Below are positions 12,864 through 41,924 of a DNA stretch of 64,000 nucleotides, in pieces (positions within the stretch are counted from its first letter, which is position 1; each line of letters starts with the position of its first letter). Source of the stretch: an uncultured Paracoccaceae bacterium. Lineage in GTDB: Bacteria > Pseudomonadota > Alphaproteobacteria > Rhodobacterales > Rhodobacteraceae. Where the stretch lies: positions 58,612 to 122,611 of the forward strand of contig CANKVU010000016.1 of the NCBI GenBank assembly GCA_947487205.1. The letters are read 5' to 3'. The notes beneath the pieces were generated by a model, which saw only the letters and a list, made by a program, of their open reading frames with translations, was not told the DNA's origin and did not search any database. A program made the translations under genes and the position numbers.

Positions 12864-12921
12864 TCCCGGCGCCGCCGCAATCGACTTGATACCGAGGCGC
12901 GCAGTGGACATCCTGCGCCCC

Positions 12922-13398
12922 ATGTCCGGGCTGTCCCTGTTCCTTGCCGATGCGCGCGCCACCGACCGTCTGGGCCGGGCGCTGGCGGATCGCCTGCACC
13001 CCGGCGACACCGTGCTGCTGGAGGGCGAGCTGGGCGCGGGCAAGAGCCACCTCGCCCGCGCCGTGATCCAGTCGATGCAGGCCCGGACGGGGCCGGTGGA
13101 GGACGTGCCCTCGCCCACCTACACGCTGGTCCAGACCTACAGCGCCGGCGGGGCGGAGATCGTCCATGCCGACCTCTACCGGCTGGGCGACCCGTCCGAG
13201 CTGGACGAGCTGGGGCTGGAGGAGGCGATGGGCCAGGCGGTCTGCCTGATCGAGTGGCCCGATCGGCTGGACCGGGTGCCGCCGGACGCGCTGCGCGTGG
13301 CGCTGTCGGCCGAGGGCGAGGGGCGGCGCGCCCGCCTGTCCGGCGCGGCGGGCTGGGAGGCGCGCCTTGCCGCGCTGCGGGAGGTCGCCGGTGCCTGA
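12922..13398 (+). CDS. tsaE: tRNA threonylcarbamoyladenosine biosynthesis ATPase TsaE
   Basis: This 158-residue ATPase is required, with TsaB and TsaD, for the t6A modification at position 37 of ANN-decoding tRNAs. The Walker A motif GELGAGKSHLAR is at about residues 35-46. The family segment SPTYTLVQTY and the Walker B-like HADLYRLGD follow, and the protein ends in the expected IEWPDRL region. The start at MSGLSLF fits the family length. It overlaps the next gene by eight bases and begins a run of tightly coupled genes through addA. Confidence 0.93.
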   Translation: MSGLSLFLADARATDRLGRALADRLHPGDTVLLEGELGAGKSHLARAVIQSMQARTGPVEDVPSPTYTLVQTYSAGGAEIVHADLYRLGDPSELDELGLEEAMGQAVCLIEWPDRLDRVPPDALRVALSAEGEGRRARLSGAAGWEARLAALREVAGA

Positions 13399-14332: not shown

Positions 14333-15006
14333 CCCGGCCGCTCCTGATCTTCGCCGCCGGGTTCGGCACCCGGATGGGCGCGCTGACGAAGGACCGCCCC
14401 AAGCCCATGGTCGAGGTCGCGGGCCGGCCGCTCGTCGATCACGCCATCGAGATCGGCCGCGCCGCCGGCTGCGCGCCGATCGTCGCCAATACCCATTACC
14501 TGCGCGGGGCGATCGAGCCGCACCTGGCCGCGCGGGGCGTCGTCGCCTCGCCCGAGGAGGACGCGATCCTCGATACCGGCGGCGGCCTGCGCCACGCGCT
14601 GCCCCGGCTCGGGCCCGGCCCTGTCTTCACCCTGAATTCCGACGCGCTCTGGACCGGGCCGAACCCGCTCGACACGCTGGAGGCCGCCTGGGAGGGCGAG
14701 GGAGACGGCGCGCTCCTGCTCTGCGTGCCGCGCGAGCGTGCCGTGGGCCGGGACGGGCCGGGCGATTTCGCGATGGCCCCGGACGGGCGCCTGACGCGCG
14801 GGGGGCCGTTCGTCTATACCGGGGCGCAGATCATCGATCCCGCGGTGCTCGCGCCGGAGGCGGGCCCCGTCTTCTCCCTGTCGCGGGTCTGGACCCGGCT
14901 GGCGGCCGCGGGGCGCCTCAGGGGCATCGTCCATGCCGGTGGCTGGGCCGATGTGGGCCATCCGGGCGGCATCGCCGCGGCCGAGGACATGCTCGCCCGT
15001 GCTTGA
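14329..15006 (+). CDS. murU: N-acetylmuramate-1-phosphate uridylyltransferase MurU
   Basis: This 225-residue nucleotidyltransferase has the sugar-nucleotide signature FAAGFGTRMGALT with KDRPKPMVEV at residues 7-30. A metal-binding Asp in TLNSDALW and the sugar-site YTGAQI follow. MurU makes UDP-MurNAc from MurNAc-1-phosphate supplied by AmgK, completing the cell-wall recycling shunt. Its ATG overlaps the amgK stop, and the GTG of addB overlaps its end by eight bases, so all three are translationally coupled. Confidence 0.9.
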   Translation: MTRPLLIFAAGFGTRMGALTKDRPKPMVEVAGRPLVDHAIEIGRAAGCAPIVANTHYLRGAIEPHLAARGVVASPEEDAILDTGGGLRHALPRLGPGPVFTLNSDALWTGPNPLDTLEAAWEGEGDGALLLCVPRERAVGRDGPGDFAMAPDGRLTRGGPFVYTGAQIIDPAVLAPEAGPVFSLSRVWTRLAAAGRLRGIVHAGGWADVGHPGGIAAAEDMLARA

Positions 15007-17938: not shown

Positions 17939-20900
17939 CCGACGACGCCTCCCTCCGCCAGATCGCGGCGGCGCGGCCCGACCGGTCCACGTGGCTGTCG
18001 GCCAATGCCGGGTCGGGCAAGACCCGCGTCCTGACCGATCGGGTGGCGCGGCTTCTGCTGCACGGGGCGGACCCGCAGAACATCCTGTGCCTGACCTATA
18101 CCAAGGCCGCCGCCTCGGAGATGCAGAACCGCCTGTTCAAGCGGCTCGGCGAATGGGCGATGATGGCCGAGGACGAGCTGACGCGGACCCTTGCCCGGCT
18201 GGGCGAGACGGACCGCTCCGCCCCCCGCCTCGCCTCGGCGCGGCGGCTCTTCGCCCAGGCGATCGAGACGCCGGGGGGCCTGCGGATCCAGACGATCCAT
18301 TCGTTCTGCGCCAGCCTGTTGCGCCGCTTTCCGCTGGAGGCCGGGGTCAGCCCCCGCTTCGCCGAGATGGACGACGCCTCGGCCGCCGGGCTGCGCGCCG
18401 ATTGCCTCGAACGGCTGGCCGAGCGCGACCCCGACCTCTTCGGCGCGTTCGCGGCCGGCATCCCGGCGGGGTCGCTCGACGGGCTCGCGGCCGAGATCGC
18501 CCGGGGGCGCGGCCAGTTCATCCCCGCCGCCGGGGCCGAAATCCGGCGGGCGCTCGGCCTCGATCCCGGAGACGACGTGGCACGGCTTCTGTCCGATACG
18601 TTCCTCGGCGGCGAGGCCGACCTGCTGGCGGCCTGCCGCGGGGCGATGGAGGGGGCCGGCCCCCAGGACCGGAAGGCCGCGGACCGGCTGGCGGCCCTCG
18701 CCCCGCCCTGGACCACCGCGGACCTCGCGGCGCTCGAATCCGTCCTACTCTTTGGCGAGGGCGCGAAGGAGCCCTTCGGGCCCAAGACCGGCAAGTTCCC
18801 GACCAAGGCGTCGCGCGGCCGGCTCGGCCCCGATTGCGCCGCGCTCGACCAGCTGATCGAGCGGGTGGCGGCGGCCCGGCCGCGCCGGATGGCACTGGAC
18901 CTGGCGGAGAGGTCGGAGATCCTGAACCGGTTCTCGGCCGCCTTCCTCGACCTCTACGCGCGGGCGAAGGAGGCGCGCGGCTGGCTCGACTTCGACGACC
19001 TGATCCTGGGCGCCCGATCGCTGCTGTCGCGGGGCGACGTGGCCGAATGGGTGCTCTACCGGCTGGACGGGGGGCTGGACCACATCCTGGTGGACGAGGC
19101 GCAGGATACGAGCCCGCCGCAATGGCAGGTGATCGAGGCGCTGACCCGGGAATTCGCCGCCGGCCACGGGGTGCGGGCGACGCCGCGCACGCTGTTCGTC
19201 GTGGGCGACCGCAAGCAGTCGATCTATTCCTTCCAGGGTGCCGATCCGGAGGGGTTCGAGCGCATGCACGACCGCTTCGCCGCGCGGGCGGGCCCGGAGG
19301 CGCTGGCGCGTCTGGAACTGCGCCATTCGTTCCGCTCCGCCCCGGCGATCCTGAGCGCCGTCGACGCGACCTTCGCCACCGCGATGGGCGGGGACGTGGC
19401 GCATGTGCCGTTCAAGTCCGACCTGCCCGGCCGCGTCGACCTGTGGCCGCTGGTGGAGCCGGAGGACGAGCCCGACCCGGCCGAATGGCACGACCCGGTC
19501 GACCGGCCCTCGCCGCGCGGCGCCGACATCCGGCTGGCAGAGGACATCGCGACGTGGGTCCGGGGCCTGATCGACACCAAGGCGACGATCCCGGACCGGG
19601 ACGTGCCCGGCCGCCGACGGCCCGTCCATGCGGGCGACATCCTGGTGCTGGTGCGGGGCCGGGGCGGGATCTTTCACCCGCTGATCCGGGCCTGCAAGGC
19701 GGCGGGCATCGACATCGCCGGCGCCGACGTGCTGCGGCTGGAGGACGACCTGGCGGTGAAGGACATCCTGTCGCTGCTGCGCGTCCTGGCCCTGCCCGAG
19801 GACGACCTGTCGCTGGCCGAGGCACTGCGCTCGCCGCTCTTCGGGCTGGACGAGGGGGACCTCTACCGGCTCGCGCACGGGCGCGGGGGACGGCGCCTGT
19901 GGCAGGTGCTGCGGGGCGCGCGCGACGCGTTCCCCGGCCCGATGGCGATGCTCGACGACCTGATGGCGCGGGCCGATTACCTGCGCCCGTTCGAACTGAT
20001 CGACCGCATCCTGCTGCGCCATGGCGGGCGGGAACGCCTGATCGGACGGCTGGGGCCCGAATCGGTCGATGCCATCGACGCGCTCCTGGCCGAGGCGCTG
20101 ACCTACGAGCGCACGGAAGCGCCCTCGCTCACCGGCTTCCTGGCGTGGTTCGCGCGTGACGATGTCACCGTCAAGCGGCAGGCGGAGGGCGCGGGCAGGC
20201 GATTGCGCGTGATGACGGTGCACGGTGCCAAGGGGCTGGAGGCGCCGGTGGTGATCCTGCCCGACACGATGCGGACCGACCCCCCCGACCGCGATCGCAT
20301 CCTGCACCTGGATGGCGGCCCGACGATCTGGAAGCCGAACAAGGCCGGGCGGCCGCCCGTCCTCGACCCCGTCGCCGCGGCCCGCGACGCCGCGCGGCGG
20401 GCCGAGCGCGACCGGCTGCTCTATGTCGCGATGACGCGCGCCGAGACGTGGCTCGTCGTCTGCGGCGCGGGCAAGGCGGCGGACGCCGATCGGGCCTGGT
20501 ACGGCCAGGTCGCGGCAGGCCTCGCCTCGGTCGCGACCGAGCCGCTCGACACCCCGGCGGGACCGGGACTGCGCCATGCGGTCAATTCCCTGGACAGGCT
20601 CGACACCGTCGACACGCCGGACCGGGAGGGGACGGACGGGGCGACGCTGTTGCCCGCGTGGTTCGACGGCGCCGCCGCCCCGGCCCGCGCCCCGGCGCGC
20701 ATCCTCTCCCCGTCCGATCTCGGCGGGGCGAAGGCGCTGCCGGGGGCGGCGGGCGACGACGAGGGGACGGCGACCCTGCGCGGCACGGGCCTGCACCTGC
20801 TGCTCGAACACCTGCCCGGGTTGCCGCGCGCGGAATGGGACGCGGCCGCGCCGCGGATCCTGGGCGCCGATCCCGACCTCGCGCCCCTGGCCCCGGCGCT

Positions 20901-21270
20901 GCTGGCGGAGGCATGCGGCGTGCTCGACGATCCCGAGACCGGGCCGCTCCTGCGCGCGGGCGCGCTGAGCGAGGTGGCGCTCGCCGCGCCGCATCCGTCG
21001 GGGGCGCATGTCGCGGGAACGGTGGACCGCCTGGAGGTCGGCCCGGACCGGGTGCGCGCCATCGACTTCAAGTCGAACCGGGTCGTGCCCGACGAGGCCG
21101 CCGCGGTGCCCGACGGCCTGCTGCGCCAGATGGGCGCCTATGCCTTCGCGCTCGGGCGGATCTATCCCGGCCGGCACATCGAGCTGGCCCTTCTGTGGAC
21201 GGTCGGGCCGCGGCTGATGCCTCTCGATACGGCGACCGCGCTGCGCGCCTTCGAACAGGGGCTGGCTTGA
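17935..21270 (+). CDS. addA: Double-strand break repair helicase AddA
   Basis: This 1111-residue UvrD/RecB-family helicase-nuclease has Walker [16 protein letters not shown] near residues 22-36. Motif [11 protein letters not shown] follows, then the DEAQDTSP motif [15 protein letters not shown] motif III and [15 protein letters not shown] motif [11 protein letters not shown] is motif VI. The C-terminal nuclease shows GTVDRLEV and AIDFKSNR with the catalytic residues. With AddB it resects double-strand ends and loads RecA. The start is the ATG overlapping addB; trxA follows after 56 bases. Confidence 0.96.
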
Positions 21271-21326
21271 CGGGTTCCGGGCCTCTCCTTACCTACCGGC
21301 CTCAAGCGCAGCCAAGGAGACACGTC

Positions 21327-21647
21327 ATGGCCACCGTTGCCGTCACCGACGACACCTTCGACACCGAGGTCCGTCAGTCGGACATTCCCGTCGTGGTCGA
21401 TTTCTGGGCCGAGTGGTGCGGCCCCTGCAAGCAGATCGGCCCGGCGCTGGAAGAGATCGCGGCCGAGATGGACGGGCAGGTGAAGATCGCCAAGGTCAAT
21501 GTCGACGAGAACCCGAACTCCCCCGCGCAGCTGGGCGTTCGCGGCATCCCGGCGCTGTTCCTGTTCAAGGACGGGCAGGTCGTGTCGAACAAGGTCGGCG
21601 CCGCGCCGAAGGCGTCGCTCGAAAGCTGGATCAAGGGCGAGATCTGA
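21327..21647 (+). CDS. trxA: Thioredoxin
   Basis: This 106-residue thioredoxin has the active site WCGPC (Cys31 and Cys34) and the cis-proline loop GIPALFLF. Length and sequence are those of classical thioredoxin 1, the cytoplasmic disulfide reductase for ribonucleotide reductase, PAPS reductase and Msr enzymes. An AAGGAG ribosome site precedes the ATG. It follows addA on the same strand with its own short gap, so it may be both co-transcribed and independently expressed. Confidence 0.97.
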
Positions 21648-21728
21648 TCCACGCCCCATGCCCCGGAGCCACACAGGCCCCGGGGCCGCACACGGTGGAG
21701 TGGTGTCCCGGCTGCGGCGATGCTAGTC

Positions 21729-21746
21729 CCTCGGGCGACCCCGAGG
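21729..21746 (+). terminator. Short hairpin after trxA
   Basis: CCTCGGG-CGAC-CCCGAGG forms a perfect seven-base-pair stem just before the ribosome site of the following glycosyltransferase. It has no U-run, so it may attenuate or process the transcript rather than end it outright. Confidence 0.35.
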
Positions 21747-21766
21747 CCTGGAAGGGAGCCTGATCC

Positions 21767-23029
21767 GTGTCGCAGAAATCCGAGGGACCCCGCGCCCGGT
21801 TCGTCATCTCCGATGCCCACGACATCTTCTGGTCCAAGGCCTCGCGCTTCGCGCGGAGCCCGCGGCGCGACGTGACCGCCACGGCGCCGCTGCACCGGGG
21901 CGGGGTGATCGACGCGGACGTGGTCATCGTCACCAATTGCACGTTCCCCGGCGGCAACGCGGCCACCACGCTCACCGAATTGCGCGCCTTCGAGGCGGCG
22001 GGATTGTCGGTGGTGATCGTGAACTGCTCGATCAAGCGGTCACGGTGGAAGTGGAACTGGATTTCCGACAGGTACCTGCCGGTGGCCGACCGCCTCGTCT
22101 CCGCCCACCGGGTGGAGCGCATCACCTGCCGCACGGCGATCATCCGCGGACCGCGGATGATGATGACCCGCAATTTCGAGCGCTTCGCCCGCAAGGTGCG
22201 GCCCGAGCACGCCATCTTCGTCGTCAACAATTCCGCCTGGAACGAGAACGGCCGCCCCGTCTTTCCCTGGCCGGACCTGCACACGCTGATCGGCACGCTC
22301 GACTGGCCGCGGGTGGAACTGTGCCCCACCGGCCCGATCATCCGCGCGGAATCGGACCGCGACCTGCAAGGCACCGGCATCGCGTCCTACCTGTCCGACC
22401 GAGACTGGCCCCCGGTCATGGACCAGGAGGACTTTCCCTTCGTGCCGCGCGCCCGGCTCGATCCGCCGATCGTCATCGGGCGCCACGCGCGGGACCATCC
22501 CGGCAAGTGGCTGTCGAACCGCGACGAGCTTCTGGCGGTCTATCCCGACACGGACCCCGATATCCGGGTCTCGATCCTGGGCGGCGCCGACACCGTGGGC
22601 CGGCAGATCGGCGGCATTCCCGAGGGCTGGCAGGTCATGCCGTTCGGCCTTGACGGGGTGCAGGATTACCTTGCGGAGCTCGACGTCTTCGTCAACTTCC
22701 CCTCGCCGGAGCGCCACGAGGCCTTCGGGCGCACCATCGTCGAGGCGATCCTGTCCGGCCTGCCGGTGATCCTGCCGCATCGCTTCGCGGCGACCTTCGG
22801 CGATCTGGCCTTCTATTGCGAGCCCCGGGAGGTCCGGGGCGTGATCGACCGGCTCGCCGCCGACGATTCCGGTCGTCTCGCCTATCTAGAGGCGGCGCGC
22901 GACCTTGCCGCCGACCTCTATTGCACGCCGAGCCTCGTGCGGCGGTTGCGGGACGGCGGGGCGATCCCGACGCCGGTCCTGCCCGAACCGGCCGCCACCT
23001 GGCGGCGCGGAATCCTGCCTCAGGCGTAA
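21767..23029 (+). CDS. Glycosyltransferase, GT-B type (family 1/4-like)
   Basis: A GTG start preceded by AAGGGAG gives 420 residues. The C-terminal half has the GT-B donor-binding layout, with FVNFPSPERHEAFGRTIVEAILSG carrying the conserved Glu-rich motif that holds the nucleotide sugar. The N-terminal half contains a Rossmann-like DADVVIVTNCTFPGGNA strand. No membrane segment is seen. Together with the convergent Stealth phosphotransferase and ABC exporter next door, it probably builds a surface polysaccharide. The exact sugar is unknown. Its 3' end overlaps that of the Stealth gene by ten bases. Confidence 0.82.
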   Translation: MSQKSEGPRARFVISDAHDIFWSKASRFARSPRRDVTATAPLHRGGVIDADVVIVTNCTFPGGNAATTLTELRAFEAAGLSVVIVNCSIKRSRWKWNWISDRYLPVADRLVSAHRVERITCRTAIIRGPRMMMTRNFERFARKVRPEHAIFVVNNSAWNENGRPVFPWPDLHTLIGTLDWPRVELCPTGPIIRAESDRDLQGTGIASYLSDRDWPPVMDQEDFPFVPRARLDPPIVIGRHARDHPGKWLSNRDELLAVYPDTDPDIRVSILGGADTVGRQIGGIPEGWQVMPFGLDGVQDYLAELDVFVNFPSPERHEAFGRTIVEAILSGLPVILPHRFAATFGDLAFYCEPREVRGVIDRLAADDSGRLAYLEAARDLAADLYCTPSLVRRLRDGGAIPTPVLPEPAATWRRGILPQA

Positions 23030-26589: not shown

Positions 26590-27114
26590 TCAGGCGTTGC
26601 CCGTGGTCCCGGATTGCTCGGCCTGGGCCTTCTGCCGCTGCGCCAGGCCCTGGCGGTAGAGCTTGACGAAGTCGATCGGTTCCAGGTTCAGCGGCGGGAA
26701 GCCGCCGTCATGGGTCACGTCCGACACGATGCGGCGGATATAGGGGAACATCAGCCGCGGCGCCTCGATCAGGAGGAACGGGTGGAGCTGCTCCTCCGAG
26801 ACGTTCGACACCTGGAAGATGCCGCCATATTCCAACTCCAGCAGGAAGAGGATGTCCTCGGATTCCTTGTTCTTGGAGCGGACGGTGAACTTGCCGAGGA
26901 CCTCGTACTGGTTTTCCTGGTCGCGCTTCTTGGCGTCCAGGCTGACCTGCACCGAGACGTCGGGCTGGACCTGACCCTTCATCCCCTTCTGGGCGAGGAC
27001 GTTCTCGAACGAGAGGTCGCGGATATATTGCGCCATCGGGCGGATCTGCGGCATCTGCGGCTGCTGCGCGCCGTTCGTGGCGGAACCCTGCGTCGTCTCT
27101 GTCTCGTCGGCCAT
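26590..27114 (-). CDS. secB: Protein-export chaperone SecB
   Basis: This 174-residue tetrameric chaperone holds preproteins unfolded for SecA. Family segments are clear: IRDLSFENV, YEVLGKFTV, EYGGIFQV and the C-terminal APRLMFPYIRRIVSDVT, with GGFPPLNLEPIDF near the end. A disordered Gln/Thr-rich N-terminus (MADETETTQGS) is typical of Alphaproteobacteria. The start at MADETE is chosen over the upstream ATG. It lies 22 bases downstream of fxsA on the same strand. Confidence 0.97.
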   Translation of the reverse strand: MADETETTQGSATNGAQQPQMPQIRPMAQYIRDLSFENVLAQKGMKGQVQPDVSVQVSLDAKKRDQENQYEVLGKFTVRSKNKESEDILFLLELEYGGIFQVSNVSEEQLHPFLLIEAPRLMFPYIRRIVSDVTHDGGFPPLNLEPIDFVKLYRQGLAQRQKAQAEQSGTTGNA

Positions 27115-27136
27115 GGCGTCTCTCCCCGGGGGTTTT

Positions 27137-27658
27137 CTAGTCGCGCCGGGACCTATCATCGCCGCCGGTCCTGGTCCAGCCGGAGGGGCGCCGTCCGGGA
27201 TCGGGCTCGGTGATCTCGACCTCCTGCGCCTCGCCCTCGATCACGCCGTCGCGGCGTTGCGGGCGGTCGGCCCCGTCGGGGCGGCGGGGATCGCCATAGG
27301 TCATCGTCTGCACGCGCACGCGGGAGCGCAGCTCGGTGAAGAGACGCTTCTGGATTGCGGGCACGAGCAGGGCGAAGCCCACCGCGTCGGTGAAGAAGCC
27401 GGGCGTGAGCAGCAGCGCGCCGGCAAAGAGCACCATCGCCCCCTTGGCGAGCGGCTCGGCCGGATCGCGAAGGTCGCGGAACGACGCCTTCAGCTCGGCC
27501 AGCGCATGCGCGCCGCGCGAGCGCACGAGCGCCGTGCCCACGATCGCCGTGACGACCACGATCAGCAGCGTCGGCCAGAGCCCGATCAACCCGCCGACCT
27601 GGATGAACAGGGCGATCTCGATCAGGGGAACGGCGATGAAAGCCGCAAGTATCCACAT
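27137..27658 (-). CDS. fxsA: FxsA family membrane protein
   Basis: This 173-residue inner-membrane protein has three hydrophobic segments: WILAAFIAVPLIEIALFIQVG, then LWPTLLIVVVTAIVG, then the GALLLTPGFFTDAVGF region. These are the FxsA family core. In E. coli FxsA overproduction relieves F-plasmid exclusion of phage T7; its normal role is unknown. The C-terminal 50 residues are polar and disordered. It is divergent from the Tim44-like gene and leads the fxsA-secB unit. Confidence 0.92.
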   Translation of the reverse strand: MWILAAFIAVPLIEIALFIQVGGLIGLWPTLLIVVVTAIVGTALVRSRGAHALAELKASFRDLRDPAEPLAKGAMVLFAGALLLTPGFFTDAVGFALLVPAIQKRLFTELRSRVRVQTMTYGDPRRPDGADRPQRRDGVIEGEAQEVEITEPDPGRRPSGWTRTGGDDRSRRD

Positions 27659-27768
27659 TCCGGGGCACCTCTTTGTCGCGAGCGGGGCGGTGGACTTGGA
27701 CCGCCCCGCCGCTTAGATAGGAACGGAGCGTGGACGTTGCCATCATTCATCCGTTTCCCAGAGGTTTC

Positions 27769-28434
27769 ATGAGCTCTGCCGTCATCCAGCTTCTAGTCCT
27801 CGCCGGGATCGCGATCTTCCTGATCCTGCGGCTTCGCAACGTTCTTGGAACGCGCGACGGGTTCGAGAAACCGACCGTCGCCCGCGGAGACGAGCCCCGG
27901 CGGGCGCAGCAGCGCCCCGAATTCGAGGTGATCGAGGGCGGTCCGGACCGCGACATCACCGACCATGTCGAGGACGAATCCGACAACGCCAAGGCGCTGG
28001 CCGCGATGAAGATGGCCGAACCGGGATTTTCGGTCGGCGAGTTCCTGCAGGGCGCGCGCCAGGCCTACGAGATGATCCTGACCGCGTTCGAGCGCGGCGA
28101 CATCTCCGAGGTGCGGGGCTTCCTGCATCCCGAGGTGGCCGAGGCCTTCGACCAGGTGATCGCCGACCGCACCGAGAAGGGCCTGACGGTGGAGAGCGAG
28201 ATCGTGGGGGTCCGGGACGTGGAACTCTACCGCGCGACCTTCGACCGCGACAGCCGCGAGGCGGAGATCACCGTGCGGTTTCTGGCCGAGGTGACGACGG
28301 TGGTGAAGGACGCCCAGGGCGAGATCATCGAGGGCGACCCGAACGAGATCCGCCGCCAGCGCGACAGCTGGACCTTCGGACGCCGGATGGGCGTGGACGA
28401 CCCGAACTGGCAGTTGATCGCCACGGGGGAGTGA
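27769..28434 (+). CDS. Tim44-domain membrane-associated protein (TimA-like)
   Basis: This 221-residue protein has one N-terminal membrane helix (VIQLLVLAGIAIFLILRL), a charged linker and a C-terminal Tim44 domain. The domain runs from about residue 85 to the end, with FLQGARQAYEMILTAFERGD and a beta-rich RDVELYRATFDRDSREAEITVRF. Alphaproteobacterial members of this family are related to mitochondrial Tim44 and bind the inner membrane. Start at ATG 27769. It overlaps mltA by one base and is co-transcribed with it. Confidence 0.9.
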   Translation: MSSAVIQLLVLAGIAIFLILRLRNVLGTRDGFEKPTVARGDEPRRAQQRPEFEVIEGGPDRDITDHVEDESDNAKALAAMKMAEPGFSVGEFLQGARQAYEMILTAFERGDISEVRGFLHPEVAEAFDQVIADRTEKGLTVESEIVGVRDVELYRATFDRDSREAEITVRFLAEVTTVVKDAQGEIIEGDPNEIRRQRDSWTFGRRMGVDDPNWQLIATGE

Positions 28435-29456
28435 TGCGCGGCTGGATGCGGGCGATCTGCGTGGCGGCGGCCTTCGGCGGCACCGCCGCGGGCGCCGGCT
28501 CCCACACGATCCTCGACTATGCCGACCTGTCGGGCTGGGACGCGGACGACCATCGCGCCGCGCTCGACGTGTTCCTGTCGACCTGCCGCGACATGGACGA
28601 TCCCGACTGGACCACGCTCTGCCGCATCGGGGCGGAGACCGAAGATCCCCGCCGCTTCTTCGAGATCCATTTCGCGCCGACGCTGGTCGAGGATGGCACG
28701 CCCACGCTTTTCACCGGATATTTCGAGCCGGAGCTCGACGGCGCGCGCCATCGCGGCGGACCCTATCAATACCCGATCCATGCCCTGCCCGAGGAAGCCG
28801 ACGGCGACGAATGGCTGACGCGGGCCGAGATCGAGAAATCCGGCGCGCTGGACGGCCGCGGCCTGGAGATCGCGTGGCTCGACGATCCGGTGGACGCCTA
28901 TTTCCTGCACGTGCAGGGATCGGGCCGCGTCCGGCTGCAGGACGGCACGGCGATCCGCGTCGGATATGCCGGCAAGAACGGCCATTCCTACCGCTCCATC
29001 GGCAAGGAGCTGGTGCGCCGCGGGATCCTGGGCGAGCACGAGGTCAGCATCGACCGGATCCGGGACTGGGTGGCTGAGAACGGCGCCGAAGGCCGCGAGA
29101 TCCTGCGCCACAATCCCTCCTACGTCTTTTTCCGCGAGGTCAGCCACGTCCCCGCCGACCGCGGTCCGCTGGGGGCGATGAACCGGTCGCTGACCGGGCT
29201 GCGATCGGTGGCGGTCGACCCCGCCCATGTCCCGCTCGGCGCCCCGGTCTGGGTGGAGAAGGCGGGACGTGCGCCGATCCGGGCGCTGATGGTCGCGCAG
29301 GATACCGGCGCGGCGGTCGAGGGGGCGCAGCGCGCCGACATCTTCTTCGGGACGGGCGAGGCGGCCGGCCGGACGGCGGGAACGATCCGGGATGGCGGGC
29401 GGATGGTCGTCCTGCTGCCGATCCAGCGCGCCTATGCCCTGGCCGAGGCGCTGTGA
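28434..29456 (+). CDS. mltA: Membrane-bound lytic murein transglycosylase A
   Basis: This 340-residue protein has a signal-peptide-like N-terminus (MRAICVAAAFGGTAAGA) and the MltA barrel domain. The C-terminal 3D domain is visible in VAVDPAHVPLGAPVW and QDTGAAVEGAQRADIFFG, whose aspartates are catalytic. It cleaves peptidoglycan glycan strands with anhydro-product formation. There is no clear lipobox, so it may be soluble or loosely anchored in the periplasm. Its ATG overlaps the Tim44 gene stop; the Smr gene follows four bases after its stop. Confidence 0.93.
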   Translation: MRGWMRAICVAAAFGGTAAGAGSHTILDYADLSGWDADDHRAALDVFLSTCRDMDDPDWTTLCRIGAETEDPRRFFEIHFAPTLVEDGTPTLFTGYFEPELDGARHRGGPYQYPIHALPEEADGDEWLTRAEIEKSGALDGRGLEIAWLDDPVDAYFLHVQGSGRVRLQDGTAIRVGYAGKNGHSYRSIGKELVRRGILGEHEVSIDRIRDWVAENGAEGREILRHNPSYVFFREVSHVPADRGPLGAMNRSLTGLRSVAVDPAHVPLGAPVWVEKAGRAPIRALMVAQDTGAAVEGAQRADIFFGTGEAAGRTAGTIRDGGRMVVLLPIQRAYALAEAL

Positions 29457-29460
29457 TCGG

Positions 29461-30048
29461 GTGGCCCGCAAGCGCCGACACCTGACGCCGGAGGAGGCGG
29501 AGCTGTGGGGACGGATCAAGCGCACCGCCGTTCCGCTGCGCCCCGAGAAGCCCGACCGCGCCCGACCGGCCGCGGCGGAACCGGCCCCGCCCGATCCCCC
29601 TGCCCCACCGGCATCGAAACCCGTGCCGGATCTGTCGGATATCGGCATCGGCACGCGAAGCCGCGGCCCGACGCCGCGTGCGTCCCGCCCCGCGCCGCCC
29701 GTCCGTATGGATGCGAAGGCCTACGGCCGCATGCGGCGCGGCAAGCTGCCGGTGGATGCGCGCATCGACCTGCACGGGGTGACGCTGGCCGAGGCGCATC
29801 CCCGGCTGGTGTCCTTCGTGCTGTCCTCGCACGCGGCGGGGCGGCGGCTGATCCTCGTCATCACCGGAAAGGGAGGCCACGAGGGAACCGACGGCGACCC
29901 GGTCGCACCCGGCCGGGGGGTCCTGCGCCGGCAGGTGCCGCATTGGCTGTCCTCGGCGCCCTTGCGGGGCGTCGTGCTGCAGGTCGACGCGGCGCATCGT
30001 CGCCATGGAGGCCTGGGCGCGATCTATGTCTACCTGCGTCGGAAGTGA
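29461..30048 (+). CDS. Smr domain protein (MutS2 C-terminal-like nuclease)
   Basis: The GTG start five bases after mltA gives 195 residues. The C-terminal Smr domain has IDLHGVTLAEA and the TGKGGHEG loop, ending HGGLGAIYVYLRR. The N-terminal half is proline- and alanine-rich and probably disordered. Free-standing Smr proteins have nicking endonuclease activity and are linked to ribosome rescue or DNA repair. It forms the end of the Tim44-mltA-smr operon and is convergent with hslU across a 178-base gap containing weak hairpins. Confidence 0.85.
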   Translation: MARKRRHLTPEEAELWGRIKRTAVPLRPEKPDRARPAAAEPAPPDPPAPPASKPVPDLSDIGIGTRSRGPTPRASRPAPPVRMDAKAYGRMRRGKLPVDARIDLHGVTLAEAHPRLVSFVLSSHAAGRRLILVITGKGGHEGTDGDPVAPGRGVLRRQVPHWLSSAPLRGVVLQVDAAHRRHGGLGAIYVYLRRK

Positions 30049-30226
30049 TCCACGGACAAAGGGGAGCCGATCCCGAAGGGCGCCGCGGGCGACATGAAGT
30101 TGATGTTCGGGCGGGGATGTGGCGCGGGCGCGTCCACACCCCCCTGTCCGGGCGAGATGGACCCCAAGAGAGGGGAACGCGACGGCGGGATCCGGACGGC
30201 CGGTCGGGCCCCCCTGGATCCGCCGC

Positions 30227-31531
30227 TCAGAGCACGTAGCGGCTGATATCGACCGATCGGCTGAGTTCGCCCAGGTGACGCTCCACGAAGGCATCGTCCA
30301 CGGTCACCGCCTCGCCCGCCTTGTCGGGCGCCTCGAACGACAATTCCTCGAAGACGCGCTCCATCACCGTGTAGAGCCGCCGGGCGCCGATATTCTCCAC
30401 CGACTGGTTCACCTCCGCCGCGATCCGCGCGAGCGCGGCGATGCCGTCCTCGGTGAAGGTGACGCTCACATCCTCCGTGCCCAGAAGCGCGGCGTATTGC
30501 CGGGTCAGGGCATTGTCGGTCTCGGTCAGGATTCGGACGAAATCCTCCTCGGTCAGGGCGCGGAGTTCCACCCGGATGGGCAGGCGCCCCTGCAATTCTG
30601 GCAGAAGGTCCGAGGGCTTGGCGACGTGGAACGCGCCGCTGGCGATGAACAGGATATGGTCCGTCTTGACCGGGCCGTACTTGGTGGAGACGACCGTCCC
30701 CTCGATCAGCGGCAGCAGGTCGCGCTGCACGCCCTCGCGGCTGACTTCGCCGCCGCGGGCGTCCTGCCGGGCGCAGACCTTGTCGATCTCGTCGAGGAAG
30801 ACGATGCCGTTCTCCTCCACCGTCCTGAGGGCCTCCTTGTTCACGGCCTCGTCGTCGAGGAGCTTGTCGGCCTCCTCGCTCAGGAGGATGGTGTAGCTCT
30901 CGGCCACGGTCATCGTCTTGCGGACCTTGCGCCCCTGGAACGCCTTGCCGAAGAGGTCGCCGAGGTTCATGCCGCCCTGCCCCGGCTGCATCCCCGGGAT
31001 CTCCATGTTGCCCATCGGGTTCGAGGTGTCGGCGACCTCGAGCGTGATCTCGGTGGCGTCGAGCTCGCCCGCATGCAGCTTCTTGCGGAACATCTCGCGG
31101 GTGCCGTCGCGGGCGTTCTCCCCGGCGATGGCCGCGATCACGCGCTCCTCGGCATTGGCCTCGGCGCGGGCCTTCACGTCCTCGCGCATGAAGTCGCGGG
31201 TCATCGTGATCGACTGCTCGACCAGGTCGCGGATGATCTGCTCGACGTCGCGACCCACATAGCCGACCTCGGTGAACTTCGTCGCCTCGACCTTGAGGAA
31301 GGGGGCGCGGGCCAGCTTGGCCAGGCGGCGCGAGATCTCGGTCTTGCCGACGCCGGTGGGGCCGATCATCAGGATGTTCTTGGGATAGACCTCGTCCTGC
31401 ATCTCGGGCGCCAGCTGGCGGCGGCGCCAGCGGTTCCGGAGCGCGACCGACACGGCACGCTTGGCGTCCTTCTGGCCGATGATGAAGCGGTCGAGCTCGG
31501 AGACGATCTCGCGGGGGGTCAGGTCGGTCAT
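30227..31531 (-). CDS. hslU: HslU ATPase subunit of the HslUV protease
   Basis: This 434-residue AAA+ unfoldase has [15 protein letters not shown] at the N-terminus and Walker [10 protein letters not shown] at about residues 58-66. Walker [10 protein letters not shown], the intermediate I-domain and the C-terminal LSRYVL-type tail that docks into HslV (here [10 protein letters not shown]) are also present. The start at [10 protein letters not shown] removes a nine-residue upstream frame. It works with HslV encoded 3.7 kb away in the opposite direction. Confidence 0.97.
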
Positions 31532-31593
31532 GGCATCCTCTCGATGGTGCCGAGGCACGTAGAGGGGCGGCGCGCGAATTTAAAGGCCGCGCC

Positions 31594-32863: not shown

Positions 32864-33690
32864 GGTGCCAGAACCGCGGCGCGAAGATGCCGATCGACCG
32901 CGGGGCGCGTCCCGAACCATCGCGCGAACCCCGGCACGGCCTGGTGGAGCAGCATGCCGACCCCGTCGACGGTGCGGCATCCCAGATCCCGCGCGGAGGC
33001 GAGGAACCCCGTTTCGAGCGGGGTATAGACGAGGTCGTTGACCACGGCGTCCGGCGACAACCGGTCGAGCGGGACGTCGAAGGGCGCCTTGCCGGTCATG
33101 CCGAGGGAGGTCGTGTTGATCGCGGTCGCCGCACCGTCGAGCATGGCGCCGGCCCGGTCCCAGTCGTGAACGGCGATCCGGGCGCCGAACTCGCGCGCCA
33201 GCGCCTCGGAGCGGTCGCGCGTGCGGTTGGCCAGCCGGATTTCGGGCGCCCCGTCGTCCAGAAGCGAGACGATGACAGCGCGGGCCGCGCCGCCGGCGCC
33301 GAAGATCGCGGCCGGCCCGTCCGTCGCCCGCCACCCCGGCGCGTTGCGGCGCAGATTTTCGAGGAACCCCTCGCCGTCGGTGTTGTCGGCCCGGACGCCA
33401 TCGGGCCCGAAGACGAGCGTGTTCGCCGCGCCGATGCGGCGCGCGCGGTCGGTGGCCGTCCGCGAAAGCTCCAGCGCCGCCACCTTGTGCGGGATCGTGA
33501 CGTTGCAGCCGACGAAACCGGCGCGGGGCAGGGTGCGCAGAACCTCGGCGAGGTCGCCCTCCTCGACATGGAGGGGAACGTAATGCCCCGCGATCCCGTA
33601 CCGCGACAGCCAATGGCCGTGCAGCGCCGGCGACCTGCTATGGGCGATGGGGCATCCGACGACGCCGGCGAGGGGGATCCGATCGGTCAT
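32860..33690 (-). CDS. aroE: Shikimate dehydrogenase
   Basis: This 276-residue NADPH enzyme reduces 3-dehydroshikimate in the shikimate pathway. The substrate site PIAHSRSPALHGHW, catalytic Lys in NVTIPHK, and cofactor loop FGAGGAARAVI with the LANRTRDR motif for NADPH are all present. The C-terminal DGVGMLLHQAVPGF is typical. Its ATG overlaps the maf stop and its stop overlaps the coaE start. Confidence 0.96.
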   Translation of the reverse strand: MTDRIPLAGVVGCPIAHSRSPALHGHWLSRYGIAGHYVPLHVEEGDLAEVLRTLPRAGFVGCNVTIPHKVAALELSRTATDRARRIGAANTLVFGPDGVRADNTDGEGFLENLRRNAPGWRATDGPAAIFGAGGAARAVIVSLLDDGAPEIRLANRTRDRSEALAREFGARIAVHDWDRAGAMLDGAATAINTTSLGMTGKAPFDVPLDRLSPDAVVNDLVYTPLETGFLASARDLGCRTVDGVGMLLHQAVPGFARWFGTRPAVDRHLRAAVLAP

Positions 33691-34280
33691 GCGGCGAGGT
33701 AACCGCGGTCGATCATCCACGACAAGAGCGGCAGCATCGGCATTCCCTGGACGGAGAAGAAATCGCCCTCGACCGCGGTGAAGAGGCGCATTCCCTCTTC
33801 CTCCAGCCGGTAGGCGCCGGGGGAGCCGCCGATCTCGGGCCAGTTTCGGGCCACGTATTCCTCGATGTAACCCCCGCTCAGCGGTCGCATCGTCAGCCGG
33901 ACGCTGGTCAGGTGGCGCCATACGGGCTCTGCGTCCTCGTAGGCGACGATCGCGGTGTGCAGGCGGTGACGTCGCCCCGAGAGGCGCGCGATCTGGGCGC
34001 GCGCGGCGTCGGGATCGGCGGGTTTCGACAGGATCTCGCCGTCGAGATCGAAGACCTGGTCGGATCCGATGGTCACGGCGTCGGGATGACGGGACGAGAC
34101 CTTGCGCGCCTTCGCCTCGGCCAGGGCGTCCGCGATGTCGCGGGGCGAAACCCCTTCGACCTGGAGCGCGGTGCGGATCGTCTCTTCGTCGACGCGCGGC
34201 AGGTCGGTTTCGAAGTCGAGACCGGCGGCGCGGAACAGCCGCGCCCGCGTGGTCGATCCGGAGGCCAGAACGATCTTCAT
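33687..34280 (-). CDS. maf: Maf family nucleotide pyrophosphatase
   Basis: This 197-residue Maf protein begins MKIVLASGSTTRARLF, the family signature. It carries the catalytic Asp in TIGSDQVFDL, then LSKPADPD and GRRHRLHTAIV. Maf proteins hydrolyse non-canonical or methylated nucleoside triphosphates. It leads the leftward operon aroE-coaE-dnaQ. Its upstream region is the probable replication origin, with a near-consensus DnaA box ten bases before its start codon. Confidence 0.94.
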   Translation of the reverse strand: MKIVLASGSTTRARLFRAAGLDFETDLPRVDEETIRTALQVEGVSPRDIADALAEAKARKVSSRHPDAVTIGSDQVFDLDGEILSKPADPDAARAQIARLSGRRHRLHTAIVAYEDAEPVWRHLTSVRLTMRPLSGGYIEEYVARNWPEIGGSPGAYRLEEEGMRLFTAVEGDFFSVQGMPMLPLLSWMIDRGYLAA

Positions 34281-34289
34281 GGACAACCC

Positions 34290-34298
34290 TGTGGATAG
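34290..34298 (-). promoter_or_regulatory. DnaA box, one mismatch
   Basis: The plus strand reads TGTGGATAG, the complement of a TTATCCACA box with one mismatch at the end. It lies ten bases from the maf start, inside the probable origin. Confidence 0.6.
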
Positions 34299-34451
34299 CT
34301 GCGGCAATGGCATGGCGACAAGTCGGCCGCCACGCCCCGGGGCGGGATAACGCAGCCATCCGTCCGGTTCCACACGGGATCCATCCCCGTGGATCCTTCG
34401 ACGTCGGGACAAACGGCAGGGCATCCCGTCAAGAGAAACGAATCCACATCT

Positions 34452-34460
34452 TTATCCACA
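34452..34460 (+). promoter_or_regulatory. Perfect DnaA box
   Basis: TTATCCACA is the consensus DnaA-ATP binding site. A degenerate copy (GAATCCACA) starts twelve bases upstream in the same orientation, followed downstream by the AT-rich stretch suited to unwinding. Confidence 0.75.
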
Positions 34461-34659
34461 GGACGTCAGCAGAGTTTTCCGCTTATAAGTCTTTGATTCA
34501 AATAGTCGAGATGGAGGAGGAGCGTTCCGGCAACCTGCAAGACCTCCCACAGGAGCGGAATCGGTATGAACCGGTGGAAAAGTTGAGTCGTCCGGTTTTC
34601 CCCAGCACTCACAACAACCAAATCCTTTCTTCCTTAAAGTTATGAGGTAAGGAGGCGCC

Positions 34660-35109
34660 ATGTCCGACCTGCTCCTGCCCCTCGTTCCCTGGCTGAAATC
34701 CCTCCACGTGATCTCGTTCGTGGCCTGGATGGCCGGCCTGTTCTATTTGCCGAGGCTCTTCGTGTATCACGTGGAATCGGTCGACCGCGGCTCCGGGACC
34801 GAGACGCTGTTCCGGACCATGGAAAACAAGCTGTTGAAATTTATCATGAATCCGGCGATGATCGCGACCTGGGCGTTCGGCCTGCTGCTGGTCGCGTCGG
34901 GTGTCGTGGACTGGTCCGCGATCTGGCCCTATGCGAAGGCGGCCGGGGTGCTGGGAATGACCGGATTCCATATGTGGTGCGCCCGCCAGAGGCGGCAGCT
35001 CGCGGCCGGCGCGCCGGGCCTTCCGGGGCGGCGGTACCGGCTCATGAACGAGGTTCCGACGATCCTCCTGATCGTCATCGTGATCGCGGTTGTCGCACGG
35101 CCGATCTGA
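34660..35109 (+). CDS. hemJ: Protoporphyrinogen oxidase HemJ
   Basis: This 149-residue membrane protein has four hydrophobic segments and the conserved N-terminal pattern [26 protein letters not shown]. The invariant His and Arg bind haem. A second family segment [15 protein letters not shown] follows. HemJ oxidises protoporphyrinogen IX in haem and chlorophyll synthesis. A GGAGG ribosome site precedes the ATG, within the right part of the probable origin. Alphaproteobacterial origins commonly lie next to hem genes. Confidence 0.94.
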
Positions 35110-37793: not shown

Positions 37794-39662
37794 GTGTTTC
37801 ACGTGAAACATCGAGTCATCGTTGTCGGTGGTGGACACGCGGGTGTGGAAGCGGCCAGCGCCGCGAAGCGCCAGGGCGCGGAGGTGATCCTTGTCACCAT
37901 GACCGCGCGGGATATCGGCACGATGTCCTGCAACCCGGCGATCGGCGGGGTAGGGAAAGGCCATCTGGTCCGCGAGGTCGACGCTCTGGGTGGAGTTATG
38001 GCGCTTGCCGGGGACTCGGCCGGAATTCAATATCGGTTGCTGAACAGCAGCAAGGGCCCGGCGGTGCAGGGTCCAAGGGCGCAGATGGATCGCCGGCTGT
38101 ACAGGTCTGCGGTGCAGGACGCCGTTCGCCGCCTTGGGATCGAGGTTATCGAAGCTCAGGTCCGCGACATCATTGTCGATCGGGGCGTGGCCGCTGGCGT
38201 CGTTACGGAGGCGGGCGACACGATCCGTGCGAATGCCGTCGTCTTGACCACGGGAACGTTCCTGCGGGGAACGATCCATATCGGCGATCACACGGAATCC
38301 GGGGGTCGGGTCGGTGAATCGGCGGCGAACGAGCTTGGCTGCCGACTTTACGATATGGGCCTGCGGATGGGGCGCCTGAAGACCGGCACGCCGCCGCGAC
38401 TCGATGGGCGCACCATCGCTTGGGACAGGTTGGATGCCCAACCCGGTGACGATCGACCCACGATGCTCTCATTCCTGAATGACGCACCTGCGGCACGGCA
38501 AGTCGATTGCGCGATCACGGAGACGAACGAGGCAACGCACGACGTCATACGTAGAAACCTGCATCGCTCAGCCATGTACTCCGGAAATATTTCGGGCAAG
38601 GGGCCCAGATATTGCCCGTCCATCGAGGACAAGATCGGTCGGTTCCCCGACAAAACCTCCCACCAGGTCTTCCTGGAACCTGAAGGATTGGACGACCACA
38701 CGATCTACCCGAACGGGATATCGACCTCTCTGCCGGTTTCTGTTCAGGAGGAGTATGTCCGGACGCTGACCGGCCTCGAGAACGTGAGCATCCTGCAACC
38801 CGGATACGCCATCGAATATGATTACGTCGATCCGAGATCGCTGAACGAAAGCCTCGAGTTGCTGGACCTGCCGGGGCTGTGGCTGGCGGGCCAGATCAAC
38901 GGCACGACCGGATACGAAGAGGCTGCGGCTCAGGGACTTGTCGCTGGCCTGAACGCGGCGAGGCGGTGCCTGGAAATGGAGAGCGTCATATTCTCCAGGG
39001 CGTCCTCGTATATCGGGGTCTTGATCAACGATCTCACGATCCGGGGGGTCACGGAGCCCTACAGGATGTTCACGTCGCGCGCCGAGTTTCGCTTGTCGCT
39101 GCGGGCGGACAACGCGGATCAACGCTTGACCCCGCTTGCGGCATCATGGGGCATTCTCGACGATACGCGTCTCAGGGCGGTCGAGTGGAAGAGTTCCGCC
39201 CTGGACGCGGCGCGTGCGGTGCTGAGCCGCCAATCTTTCACCGCTCGGGAGGCGAGAGGGGCGGGAATTCAGGTGTCGGGCGACGGAGCGCGGCGGACCG
39301 CGATGTCGCTCCTGTCGATACCGGGGGTTGAGATAGACAATGTCATAGAACTCGAACCCGAGGTAAAACACGTTGCTCCAGAGATCCTGGCCCAGATTGC
39401 GCGTGAATGCATCTATCTGAACTATGTCGAGCGACAATCCGCGGAGGTCGAGCGCCTGCGGCGTGACGAGGCTCGCGCCATTCCGGAGGATTTCGACATT
39501 GGCGCTATCCATGGTCTCAGTTCCGAGTTGCGGGAGAAGCTGCGACGCAGTCGTCCGACCACGATTGCATCGGCGCAGAGGATCGAGGGCATGACGCCGG
39601 CTGCAATGAACGCGCTACTTCTTGCCCTTCGAGCTCGAGAACGGCGTTCGGCTACCAGATGA
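37794..39662 (+). CDS. mnmG: tRNA uridine-5-carboxymethylaminomethyl synthesis enzyme MnmG
   Basis: This FAD protein is the partner of MnmE. The Rossmann FAD site VVVGGGHAGVEAASAAKRQG is at the N-terminus, followed by MSCNPAIGGVGKGHLVREVDALGG, and the C-terminal helical domain ends in REKL and RIEGMTPAAMNALL. Length is about 622 residues. Two GTG starts are possible: 37794 gives VFHVKHRV, with the parS site inside the codons. GTG 37803 gives VKHRVIVV and has the better placed AGGAG (eight-base spacing). Homologs usually show FHVKH at the start, so 37794 is listed. Codon use is noticeably AT-richer than elsewhere in the window. Confidence 0.96.
   Translation: MFHVKHRVIVVGGGHAGVEAASAAKRQGAEVILVTMTARDIGTMSCNPAIGGVGKGHLVREVDALGGVMALAGDSAGIQYRLLNSSKGPAVQGPRAQMDRRLYRSAVQDAVRRLGIEVIEAQVRDIIVDRGVAAGVVTEAGDTIRANAVVLTTGTFLRGTIHIGDHTESGGRVGESAANELGCRLYDMGLRMGRLKTGTPPRLDGRTIAWDRLDAQPGDDRPTMLSFLNDAPAARQVDCAITETNEATHDVIRRNLHRSAMYSGNISGKGPRYCPSIEDKIGRFPDKTSHQVFLEPEGLDDHTIYPNGISTSLPVSVQEEYVRTLTGLENVSILQPGYAIEYDYVDPRSLNESLELLDLPGLWLAGQINGTTGYEEAAAQGLVAGLNAARRCLEMESVIFSRASSYIGVLINDLTIRGVTEPYRMFTSRAEFRLSLRADNADQRLTPLAASWGILDDTRLRAVEWKSSALDAARAVLSRQSFTAREARGAGIQVSGDGARRTAMSLLSIPGVEIDNVIELEPEVKHVAPEILAQIARECIYLNYVERQSAEVERLRRDEARAIPEDFDIGAIHGLSSELREKLRRSRPTTIASAQRIEGMTPAAMNALLLALRARERRSATR
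37795..37810. promoter_or_regulatory. parS site, perfect 16-bp palindrome
   Basis: TGTTTCACGTGAAACA matches the universal ParB-binding site at every base. It lies across the first codons of mnmG, so the same bases encode FHVKH. ParB-CTP loads here and spreads to form the partition complex near oriC. Confidence 0.95.
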
Positions 39663-40240
39663 TCAATGTTTCACGTGAAACAGCCATCCGACTGGATACG
39701 TTCGAAGCGCTGGTCAGGAAGTGGAACCCGACGGTCAACCTGGTCGCGTCGGCCGATCTGCCTCGCTTGAGGGCGCGACACACCTTGGATAGCGGACAAC
39801 TTGCCGAATTTGCACCAGCCGCACGGACCTGGTGCGATCTGGGGAGCGGAGGAGGATTCCCCGGGATCGTCATCGCGATCCTCCGTCCGGACCTTGATAT
39901 GGTTCTGATCGAGTCGGATCAACGCAAGGCGGCTTTTCTTCGATCCATGATCCGCAGCCTGTCCCTGTCGTGCAAGGTCCTGACCGAGCGGATCGAGCAA
40001 GTCACCCCGCAGCAAACGGATGTCGTTTCGGCCCGCGCCCTTGCGCCCCTTTCCAGGTTGATCGAGATCGCCAGCCGGCACGGGACGCCGGATACGACAT
40101 ATGTCTTCCCAAAAGGGATCCACTACCTCGATGAAATCGACGCCGCCAAAGAAAGGTGGAAGTTCGACGTTGACGTTCGCCCCAGCAAGACGGAGAAGGG
40201 GTCCGTCATCCTGACACTGGAGAACATCGCGCGTGTCTGA
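39659..40240 (+). CDS. rsmG: 16S rRNA (guanine527-N7) methyltransferase RsmG
   Basis: This 193-residue SAM-dependent methyltransferase (GidB) has the glycine-rich WCDLGSGGGFPGIV SAM-binding loop. VLIESDQRKAAFL follows, and VVSARALAPL is the post-II motif. It methylates G527 in the 530 loop; loss confers low-level streptomycin resistance in other bacteria. The ATG overlaps the mnmG stop as ATGA. Its codons 3-8 coincide with a parS site and spell NVSRET. It overlaps parA by eight bases. Confidence 0.95.
   Translation: MINVSRETAIRLDTFEALVRKWNPTVNLVASADLPRLRARHTLDSGQLAEFAPAARTWCDLGSGGGFPGIVIAILRPDLDMVLIESDQRKAAFLRSMIRSLSLSCKVLTERIEQVTPQQTDVVSARALAPLSRLIEIASRHGTPDTTYVFPKGIHYLDEIDAAKERWKFDVDVRPSKTEKGSVILTLENIARV
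39667..39682. promoter_or_regulatory. parS site, second perfect copy
   Basis: A second exact TGTTTCACGTGAAACA, 1.87 kb from the first, sits inside rsmG codons 3-8. Two consensus copies close to parAB and oriC form a standard chromosomal partition region. Confidence 0.95.
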
Positions 40241-41030
40241 CGTTCACAGCGGACGGCCTAAAGTCGTCGCCATCGTCAACCAGAAGGGCGGGGTGGGAAA
40301 GACCACCACGGCCATCAATTTGGGCGCGGCGCTCGCCGAGGCGGGAAAGAAGGTCGTGATCATCGATCTGGACCCCCAGGGAAACGCGTCGACCGGCCTT
40401 GGAATCGAACTCGAAGATCGCCACTCGACCACGTATGATCTGATCCTCGAGGGCATGGATCTGATCGATGCCCTGCAGGGGACGCGGATTCCGAACCTTT
40501 TCGTGGTTCCGGCAACCTCGGATTTGAGCTCGGCCGATATCGAGATGTTGTCCAAGGGGCAACGGACCGCCCTGTTGAAGATGGCGCTCGCCACCGACCG
40601 GATCGAAGCGATCGGGCTGGACTTCGTGTTCATCGATTGCCCGCCATCGCTGTCGCTTCTGACAGTTAACGCGATGGTCGCGGCGGATTCCGTTCTCGTC
40701 CCCTTGCAAAGCGAGTTCTTCGCGCTGGAGGGCCTGTCCCAGCTGATGTTGACGGTGCGGGAGGTGCGACAATCGGCCAACCCGAACCTGTCAATCGAAG
40801 GGGTGGTCTTGACGATGTATGACGGCCGGAACAAGCTGGCGCAGGGAGTGCTGGCCGATGCCAAGGAGACGCTGGGCGAACTGGTCTTCCATACGATCAT
40901 TCCGCGTAACGTGCGCGTGAGCGAGGCGCCGTCCTATGCACAGCCAGTGACGGAGTACGACCCGGCATCGAAGGGAAGTATCGCGTATCGTGCCTTGGCA
41001 GACGAATTCGTGGCGCGGCACCGGATCTGA
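40233..41030 (+). CDS. parA: Chromosome partitioning ATPase ParA
   Basis: This 265-residue Walker-type ATPase has the deviant P-loop KGGVGKTTT at residues 18-26. FIDCPPSLSLL is the Walker B-type motif, and the DLDPQGNAST switch follows the P-loop. ParA binds DNA non-specifically in its ATP state and drags the ParB-parS complex apart. A GTG start overlaps rsmG. parB begins ten bases after the stop. It shares the operon with the tRNA/rRNA-modification genes, as in many Alphaproteobacteria. Confidence 0.97.
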   Translation: MSDVHSGRPKVVAIVNQKGGVGKTTTAINLGAALAEAGKKVVIIDLDPQGNASTGLGIELEDRHSTTYDLILEGMDLIDALQGTRIPNLFVVPATSDLSSADIEMLSKGQRTALLKMALATDRIEAIGLDFVFIDCPPSLSLLTVNAMVAADSVLVPLQSEFFALEGLSQLMLTVREVRQSANPNLSIEGVVLTMYDGRNKLAQGVLADAKETLGELVFHTIIPRNVRVSEAPSYAQPVTEYDPASKGSIAYRALADEFVARHRI

Positions 41031-41039
41031 GGGGAAGAC

Positions 41040-41924
41040 ATGTCGGAACGCAGGGAACGACGCGGGCTCGGGCGGGGACTGTCCGCCCTCATGGCTGATA
41101 TCGACGTGGCGTCGTCCGATTCGTCGGACGGGGAGGCGCCGCGGCCCGAAGCTCTCGTGCCCATCGAGCGGATCGAGGCGAACCCGGACCAGCCGCGCCG
41201 CTCGTTCAACACCGAGAGCCTTGAGGAACTTGCCGGTTCGATTGCCCAGAGGGGCATCATCCAGCCTCTCATTCTGCGCCAGCATCCTGAAAAAAATGAA
41301 CATTATCAGATAGTTGCGGGTGAGCGGAGGTGGCGGGCCGCGCAGATGGCGCAGCTTCACGAAGTGCCCGCGATCATCCGTGAATTCGACGATATCGAGG
41401 TCCTCGAGGTCGCGATCATCGAGAACATCCAGCGCGCGGATCTCAACCCGGTGGACGAGGCGTCTGGGTACCGGCAGCTCATGGACCGCTTCGGCCATAC
41501 GCAGGAGAAGATGGCGGAAGCCCTCGGCAAGAGCCGATCGCATATCGCCAATGCGCTGCGGCTCCTGAATCTCCCGCAGGACGTGCAGGGCCACCTTGCC
41601 GAAGGACGGCTGTCGGCGGGTCATGCCCGTGCTCTTGTCGCGAATCCGAACGCGTCCGAACTGGCGCAACAGATCCTGAAGAAGGGCCTGTCCGTGCGCG
41701 AGACCGAGGCGCTCGTCCGCAAGCCTGAGGGGAGGTCGGGCCCCAAGGCGGGCACGGTGGAGAAGGATGCGGATACCCGGGTTCTGGAACAGGAGCTCAG
41801 CTCCGCGCTCGGGTTGCGGGTCAGCATCGATCACAAGGCAGGCACAGCCGGCGGCAAGATGACGATCAGCTACCGCTCCCTGGAACAGCTCGACGATCTT
41901 TGCCGCCGCCTTTCGGGCGACTAG
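41040..41924 (+). CDS. parB: Chromosome partitioning protein ParB
   Basis: This 294-residue ParB/Spo0J-type CTPase binds parS. The N-terminal ParA-binding motif is MSERRERRGLGRGLSALM. The CTP-binding region includes ANPDQPRRSF and the VAGERRWRAAQ box, and the central helix-turn-helix includes MAEALGKSRSHIANALRLL. The C-terminal dimer domain ends near LDDLCRRL. An AT-rich codon patch precedes the GERR box (see findings). Its stop overlaps that of convergent hemW by four bases. Confidence 0.97.
   Translation: MSERRERRGLGRGLSALMADIDVASSDSSDGEAPRPEALVPIERIEANPDQPRRSFNTESLEELAGSIAQRGIIQPLILRQHPEKNEHYQIVAGERRWRAAQMAQLHEVPAIIREFDDIEVLEVAIIENIQRADLNPVDEASGYRQLMDRFGHTQEKMAEALGKSRSHIANALRLLNLPQDVQGHLAEGRLSAGHARALVANPNASELAQQILKKGLSVRETEALVRKPEGRSGPKAGTVEKDADTRVLEQELSSALGLRVSIDHKAGTAGGKMTISYRSLEQLDDLCRRLSGD

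Follow-up and report, generated by a model that had tools for sequence, protein, structure and literature searches.

The question raised by this locus is whether the short gap between the divergent genes maf and hemJ is the replication origin (oriC) of the main chromosome, as proposed by a first-pass annotation. Origins near parAB have already been predicted in the Rhodobacteraceae (PMC6699656, PMC8116508). These comprise Ori-Finder predictions for 101 genomes of the family, for which DnaA boxes, the GC minimum, skew and the proximity of parAB served as curation criteria (PMC6699656), and an order-wide set (PMC8116508). The genome studied here lies outside these closed-genome sets because it is a draft.

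Sequences and scoring

The window, that is, the whole stretch of DNA analysed, comprises 64,000 nucleotides (positions 58612-122611 of contig C16) of the draft genome G000, which has 82 contigs and 4.18 Mb. Relatives of the locus, recruited through hemJ, were Rhodobacteraceae. DnaA boxes were scored by mismatches against TTATCCACA. The family count covers 77 Rhodobacteraceae loci in which maf or aroE stands on the left side of hemJ, and scores the 400 bp before hemJ in each. GC skew of G000 was computed on contig C16 alone (123 kb) and that of the relatives from sampled stretches.

The gap and its gene neighbourhood

The gap is of 378-379 bp, depending on the gene starts (34281 for maf, 34660 for hemJ), and its features are collected in Table 1. 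Gene calls place maf, aroE, coaE and dnaQ leftward of it and hemJ, rho, mnmE, mnmG, rsmG, parA and parB rightward, which is exactly the switch of orientation, four genes against seven, described in the first-pass annotation. The hem gene, rho, parAB and parS that it had reported within a few kb were also found: hemJ and rho adjoin the gap, and exact parS sites number just two in the 4.18-Mb genome, both at 5.1 kb or less from it and followed by parA and parB. In the five other genomes checked a parS site was present near hemJ in every case. Both parS palindromes are contained in coding sequence, in the first codons of mnmG (37794-37810) and of rsmG (39659-39682). The locus was not found as a plasmid-borne unit, the plasmid collection giving rho-like matches only; judged by these matches, the maf-hemJ locus is not carried by plasmids as one unit. 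In another part of the window, a stretch of about 10 kb (12000-22000), the GC content climbs to 0.74-0.76 and clearly exceeds that of the remainder.

Table 1. Features of the predicted origin and its surroundings, in window coordinates.
Feature	Position	Strand	Remarks
Predicted oriC, maf/hemJ intergenic gap	34282..34659	.	DnaA-box cluster, skew minimum of complete relative at same place, family conservation
maf, left flank	33687..34281	-	Pfam PF02545
hemJ (UPF0093), right flank	34660..35109	+	Pfam PF03653
DnaA box CTATCCACA, 1 mismatch, maf-proximal	34290-34298	-	match to TTATCCACA
Weak DnaA box GAATCCACA, 2 mismatches	34440-34448	+	match to TTATCCACA
Perfect DnaA box TTATCCACA, 0 mismatches	34452-34460	+	similar position recurs in many genus members
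Second low-stability AT-rich stretch	34470..34519	.	stability scan, 50-bp stretches
Weak DnaA box TTTTCCACC, 2 mismatches	34573-34581	-	match to TTATCCACA
Weak DnaA box TTTTCCCCA, 2 mismatches	34596-34604	+	aligns with family-conserved hem-proximal box
Probable unwinding element, degenerate version of family tract CCCTACAaCATCATCATC-T-rich	34605..34640	+	in window's second least stable 50-bp stretch
parS TGTTTCACGTGAAACA	37795..37810	.	exact match; overlaps mnmG start
parS TGTTTCACGTGAAACA	39667..39682	.	exact match; within rsmG 5' end
parA and parB	40233..41924	+	Pfam

DnaA boxes in the gap and across the family

All the boxes announced by the first-pass annotation were located, one perfect, one with a single mismatch and several weaker ones, these last being three with two mismatches. 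Like the maf-proximal box of the window, a minus-strand box is present at about -340 to -376 in roughly half of the genus members. In the gap, two boxes have no more than one mismatch against 0.06 expected, a count reached by 1 of 2000 dinucleotide shuffles, and a perfect box was obtained in 5 of 2000. Only four copies of TTATCCACA are present in the entire genome (4.18 Mb), and the chance of finding one in the gap is about 4 x 379/4.18 Mb = 4e-4. Nowhere else in the 64-kb window are boxes clustered so densely, the weighted score of the gap being 8 against a mean of 0.34. A box cluster beyond chance, as looked for in an oriC, is therefore present here.

The same enrichment was identified throughout the family. 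The 77 gaps contain 25 perfect boxes against 0.23 expected and 196 boxes with at most one mismatch against 8.1 expected, a 24-fold excess; at least one of the latter is present in 75 of the 77, and the mean is 2.55 boxes per gap compared with 0.03 per control interval from the same loci. Chance is ruled out by this excess over both the expectation and the control intervals.

AT-rich stretches and the hem-proximal module

The GC content of the gap is 0.556, and that of the 2-kb bins elsewhere in the window 0.61 to 0.76. When the 50-bp stretches of the window are ranked by stability, two of the lowest three fall in the gap (at 34606 and 34470), so the AT-rich stretches noted earlier are present and the gap contains the easily opened DNA expected of an oriC.

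Adjoining the hem gene, the family consensus is TaATCCcC-atTaTCCaC.G.CCCTACAaCAtCATCATCtTTTcTTT. This module, formed by tandem boxes, a GC-rich spacer, ATC repeats and a T tract, is kept across the family and is degenerate in the window, where the copy is TTTTCCCCAGCACTCACAACAACCAAATCC. Boxes, a GC-rich spacer and trinucleotide repeats are also the published arrangement of the BUS (PMC8287927). As in the bacterial BUS with its DnaA boxes and DnaA-trios (PMC8287927, PMC6669920), many family gaps combine one or more boxes with a short GC-rich spacer and with trinucleotide repeats oriented towards hemJ; however, the family repeats are ATC on the top strand (3'-TAG-5') whereas the usual BUS has 3'-GAT-5', and the copy of the window fails the rule applied. 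This rule, modelled on the published one, asks for a DnaA box with three or more 3'-NAN-5' trios no further than 16 bp from it. In its strict form it is passed by 36 of 93 family gaps against 1.1 in shuffles, and in the opposite direction by 22 of 93. No such trios were identified in the gap of the window on either strand, even allowing two mismatches in the box. The family module, with its CCC spacer, might be an unwinding module of a variant kind, with DnaA gripping the 3'-TAG-5' repeats, that has decayed in the lineage of the window, so that opening there would need the few weak boxes or the second AT-rich stretch; this reading is speculative and is regarded as somewhat unlikely. A strict 33-base pattern of the module gave no hit in 42 genomes that lack a close hemJ match, a result that is uninformative because the pattern catches only 10 of the 93 known gaps.

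Other sites were few. The full CtrA site TTAA-N7-TTAA is present in 13% of the family gaps and absent from that of the window, unlike Cori of Caulobacter crescentus with its five CtrA sites (PMC1914354). Related origins without CtrA sites are reported in the same work, and such sites are therefore not required for an oriC. The sole other initiator-type site in the gap is one IHF-like match at 34486. GANTC occurs four times, which is not significant for the composition (P about 0.15), and it is not enriched in the relatives.

Derivation of the gene order

The experimentally mapped origin of Caulobacter is flanked by COG1806 and hemE (PMC1914354). The same order, COG1806 (PF03618), boxes, hemE and then hemJ and rho, was identified in two genomes of other families (G033 and G036) and in one of the Rhodobacteraceae (G018). 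In G000, G006, G008 and G017 COG1806 was not found and hemE is distant from hemJ. G018 (locus L020, 1-470) is a Rhodobacteraceae genome that retains the ancestral order, COG1806, origin and hemE-hemJ-rho.

A Cori-type origin is located between hemE and COG1806 or in a position derived from it, with parAB and parS close by; the gap occupies the derived position and has both partition elements nearby. Traced through hemE and COG1806, the homology of its position to the mapped Caulobacter origin is supported. The likeness to Cori comprises the syntenic place, as seen in the outgroups and the one family member, together with the DnaA boxes, a stretch rich in AT and a parABS system in the vicinity; the genome of the window differs in the altered position of hemE and the absence of COG1806. 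In an ancestor the origin stood between these two genes, and the loss of COG1806 and the relocation of hemE left maf and hemJ as its flanks. Read from these gene orders, the origin stayed put and both classical flanking genes left it, giving the arrangement maf, oriC, hemJ.

The same gene orders bear on another explanation of the boxes, in which the gap is a mere divergent promoter of maf and hemJ, with DnaA as a transcription regulator, and replication starts at another place, such as dnaA. Two divergent genes do need promoters in the gap. However, in G018 the boxes and the hem-proximal module precede hemE and not hemJ, so they are independent of the hemJ promoter and are assigned to the origin. 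The place of the origin that this explanation would require is considered in the next section, and as a whole it is judged very improbable.

GC skew and the position of dnaA

The clearest skew was obtained in the complete relative G017, where the sampled skew declines over one arm and reverses its course at the hemJ locus. In contiguous sequence its cumulative minimum is at 3,475,899, about 2 kb from the maf/hemJ gap, which lies just past hemJ (3,477,020-3,477,457, minus strand); dnaA is at position 316, about 82 kb off round the circle. An origin at dnaA might be read from the complete records of several relatives, which start at that gene, but this is an assembler convention. Within 20 kb around the dnaA of G000 no box with at most one mismatch was identified, and with the minimum of G017 placed at the gap an origin at dnaA is rejected.

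The skew test proposed by the first-pass annotation gave a mixed picture, with agreement in G017 and broadly in G008, where the sign changes in the same 100-kb zone as the hemJ locus although the change is broad. The minimum of G125 is broad and includes dnaA, hemJ being close to its left edge. G233 has a complex whole-chromosome skew that switches sharply, on a local scale, in the gap at 2,927,741, 450 bp before hemJ; its dnaA is 1.58 Mb away. On C16 the weak skew keeps its sign across the gap. Clean skew support is that of G017 alone, since local skew changes are confounded by divergent transcription.

The skew of C16 could indicate an origin near the gap and outside it, tens of kb to the left: the cumulative minimum of the contig is at C16:38,964, about 54 kb leftward, and the skew at fourfold sites agrees, becoming positive at about 40-50 kb. 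A skew of 0.02 to 0.04 over a 123-kb contig is, however, poor evidence. The minimum also sits in a block (C16:17.7-63.6 kb) that looks inserted or rearranged because G008 and G017 lack it between the corresponding genes, and no box cluster accompanies it, only one box with at most one mismatch (C16:52,492) within 20 kb. Such a displaced origin is likewise judged very improbable.

Several differences from the relatives in gene order were seen on this arm. The block of about 46 kb (C16:17700-63600, covering the window up to about 5.0 kb) is missing from the interval between the equivalent flanking genes of G008 and G017. The sequence at its right end (C16:57.1-63.7 kb) is inverted and lies across the origin in G008 (3,147-3,154 kb), a placement that resembles symmetric inversions about an origin. 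Next to dnaQ, a block of about 5 kb with hslU-like and mltA-like genes (26590-31558) is inverted with respect to G008 and G017, its flanks being colinear. Left of the origin (window 1-34000) the skew is weakly positive and in colinear relatives negative; the weakly positive left arm of C16 probably reflects rearrangement.

Predicted origin and its significance

The maf/hemJ gap is, with high confidence, the predicted oriC of the main chromosome. Initiation at this place, as first proposed, is supported by the box enrichment, the skew minimum of G017 and the Caulobacter-homologous position, the exact points of initiation and unwinding being predictions from the sequence. DnaA would bind the box cluster, most strongly at 34452 and 34290, and would then extend over the weak boxes adjoining hemJ. 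The DNA would open in one of the two AT-rich stretches, at about 34605-34655 or at 34470, the helicase would be loaded and two forks would depart in opposite directions. ParB at the two parS sites 3-5 kb rightward would separate the newly copied origins.

This origin is the same as in the relatives; it is ordinary and not a discovery. It resembles the origins predicted with Ori-Finder in the same family in having boxes, low GC and parAB, whereas maf or hem genes as flanks are unmentioned in the main text of PMC6699656. Its value is that an origin position is assigned for a draft genome lacking a closed chromosome. The arrangement maf, oriC, hemJ with parS 3-5 kb away is a simple landmark for many Rhodobacteraceae, useful where origin finders at times give several candidates. 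The locus also illustrates the remodelling of the classical hemE/COG1806 origin neighbourhood, and the conserved hem-proximal module is a concrete target for testing how DnaA opens alphaproteobacterial origins.
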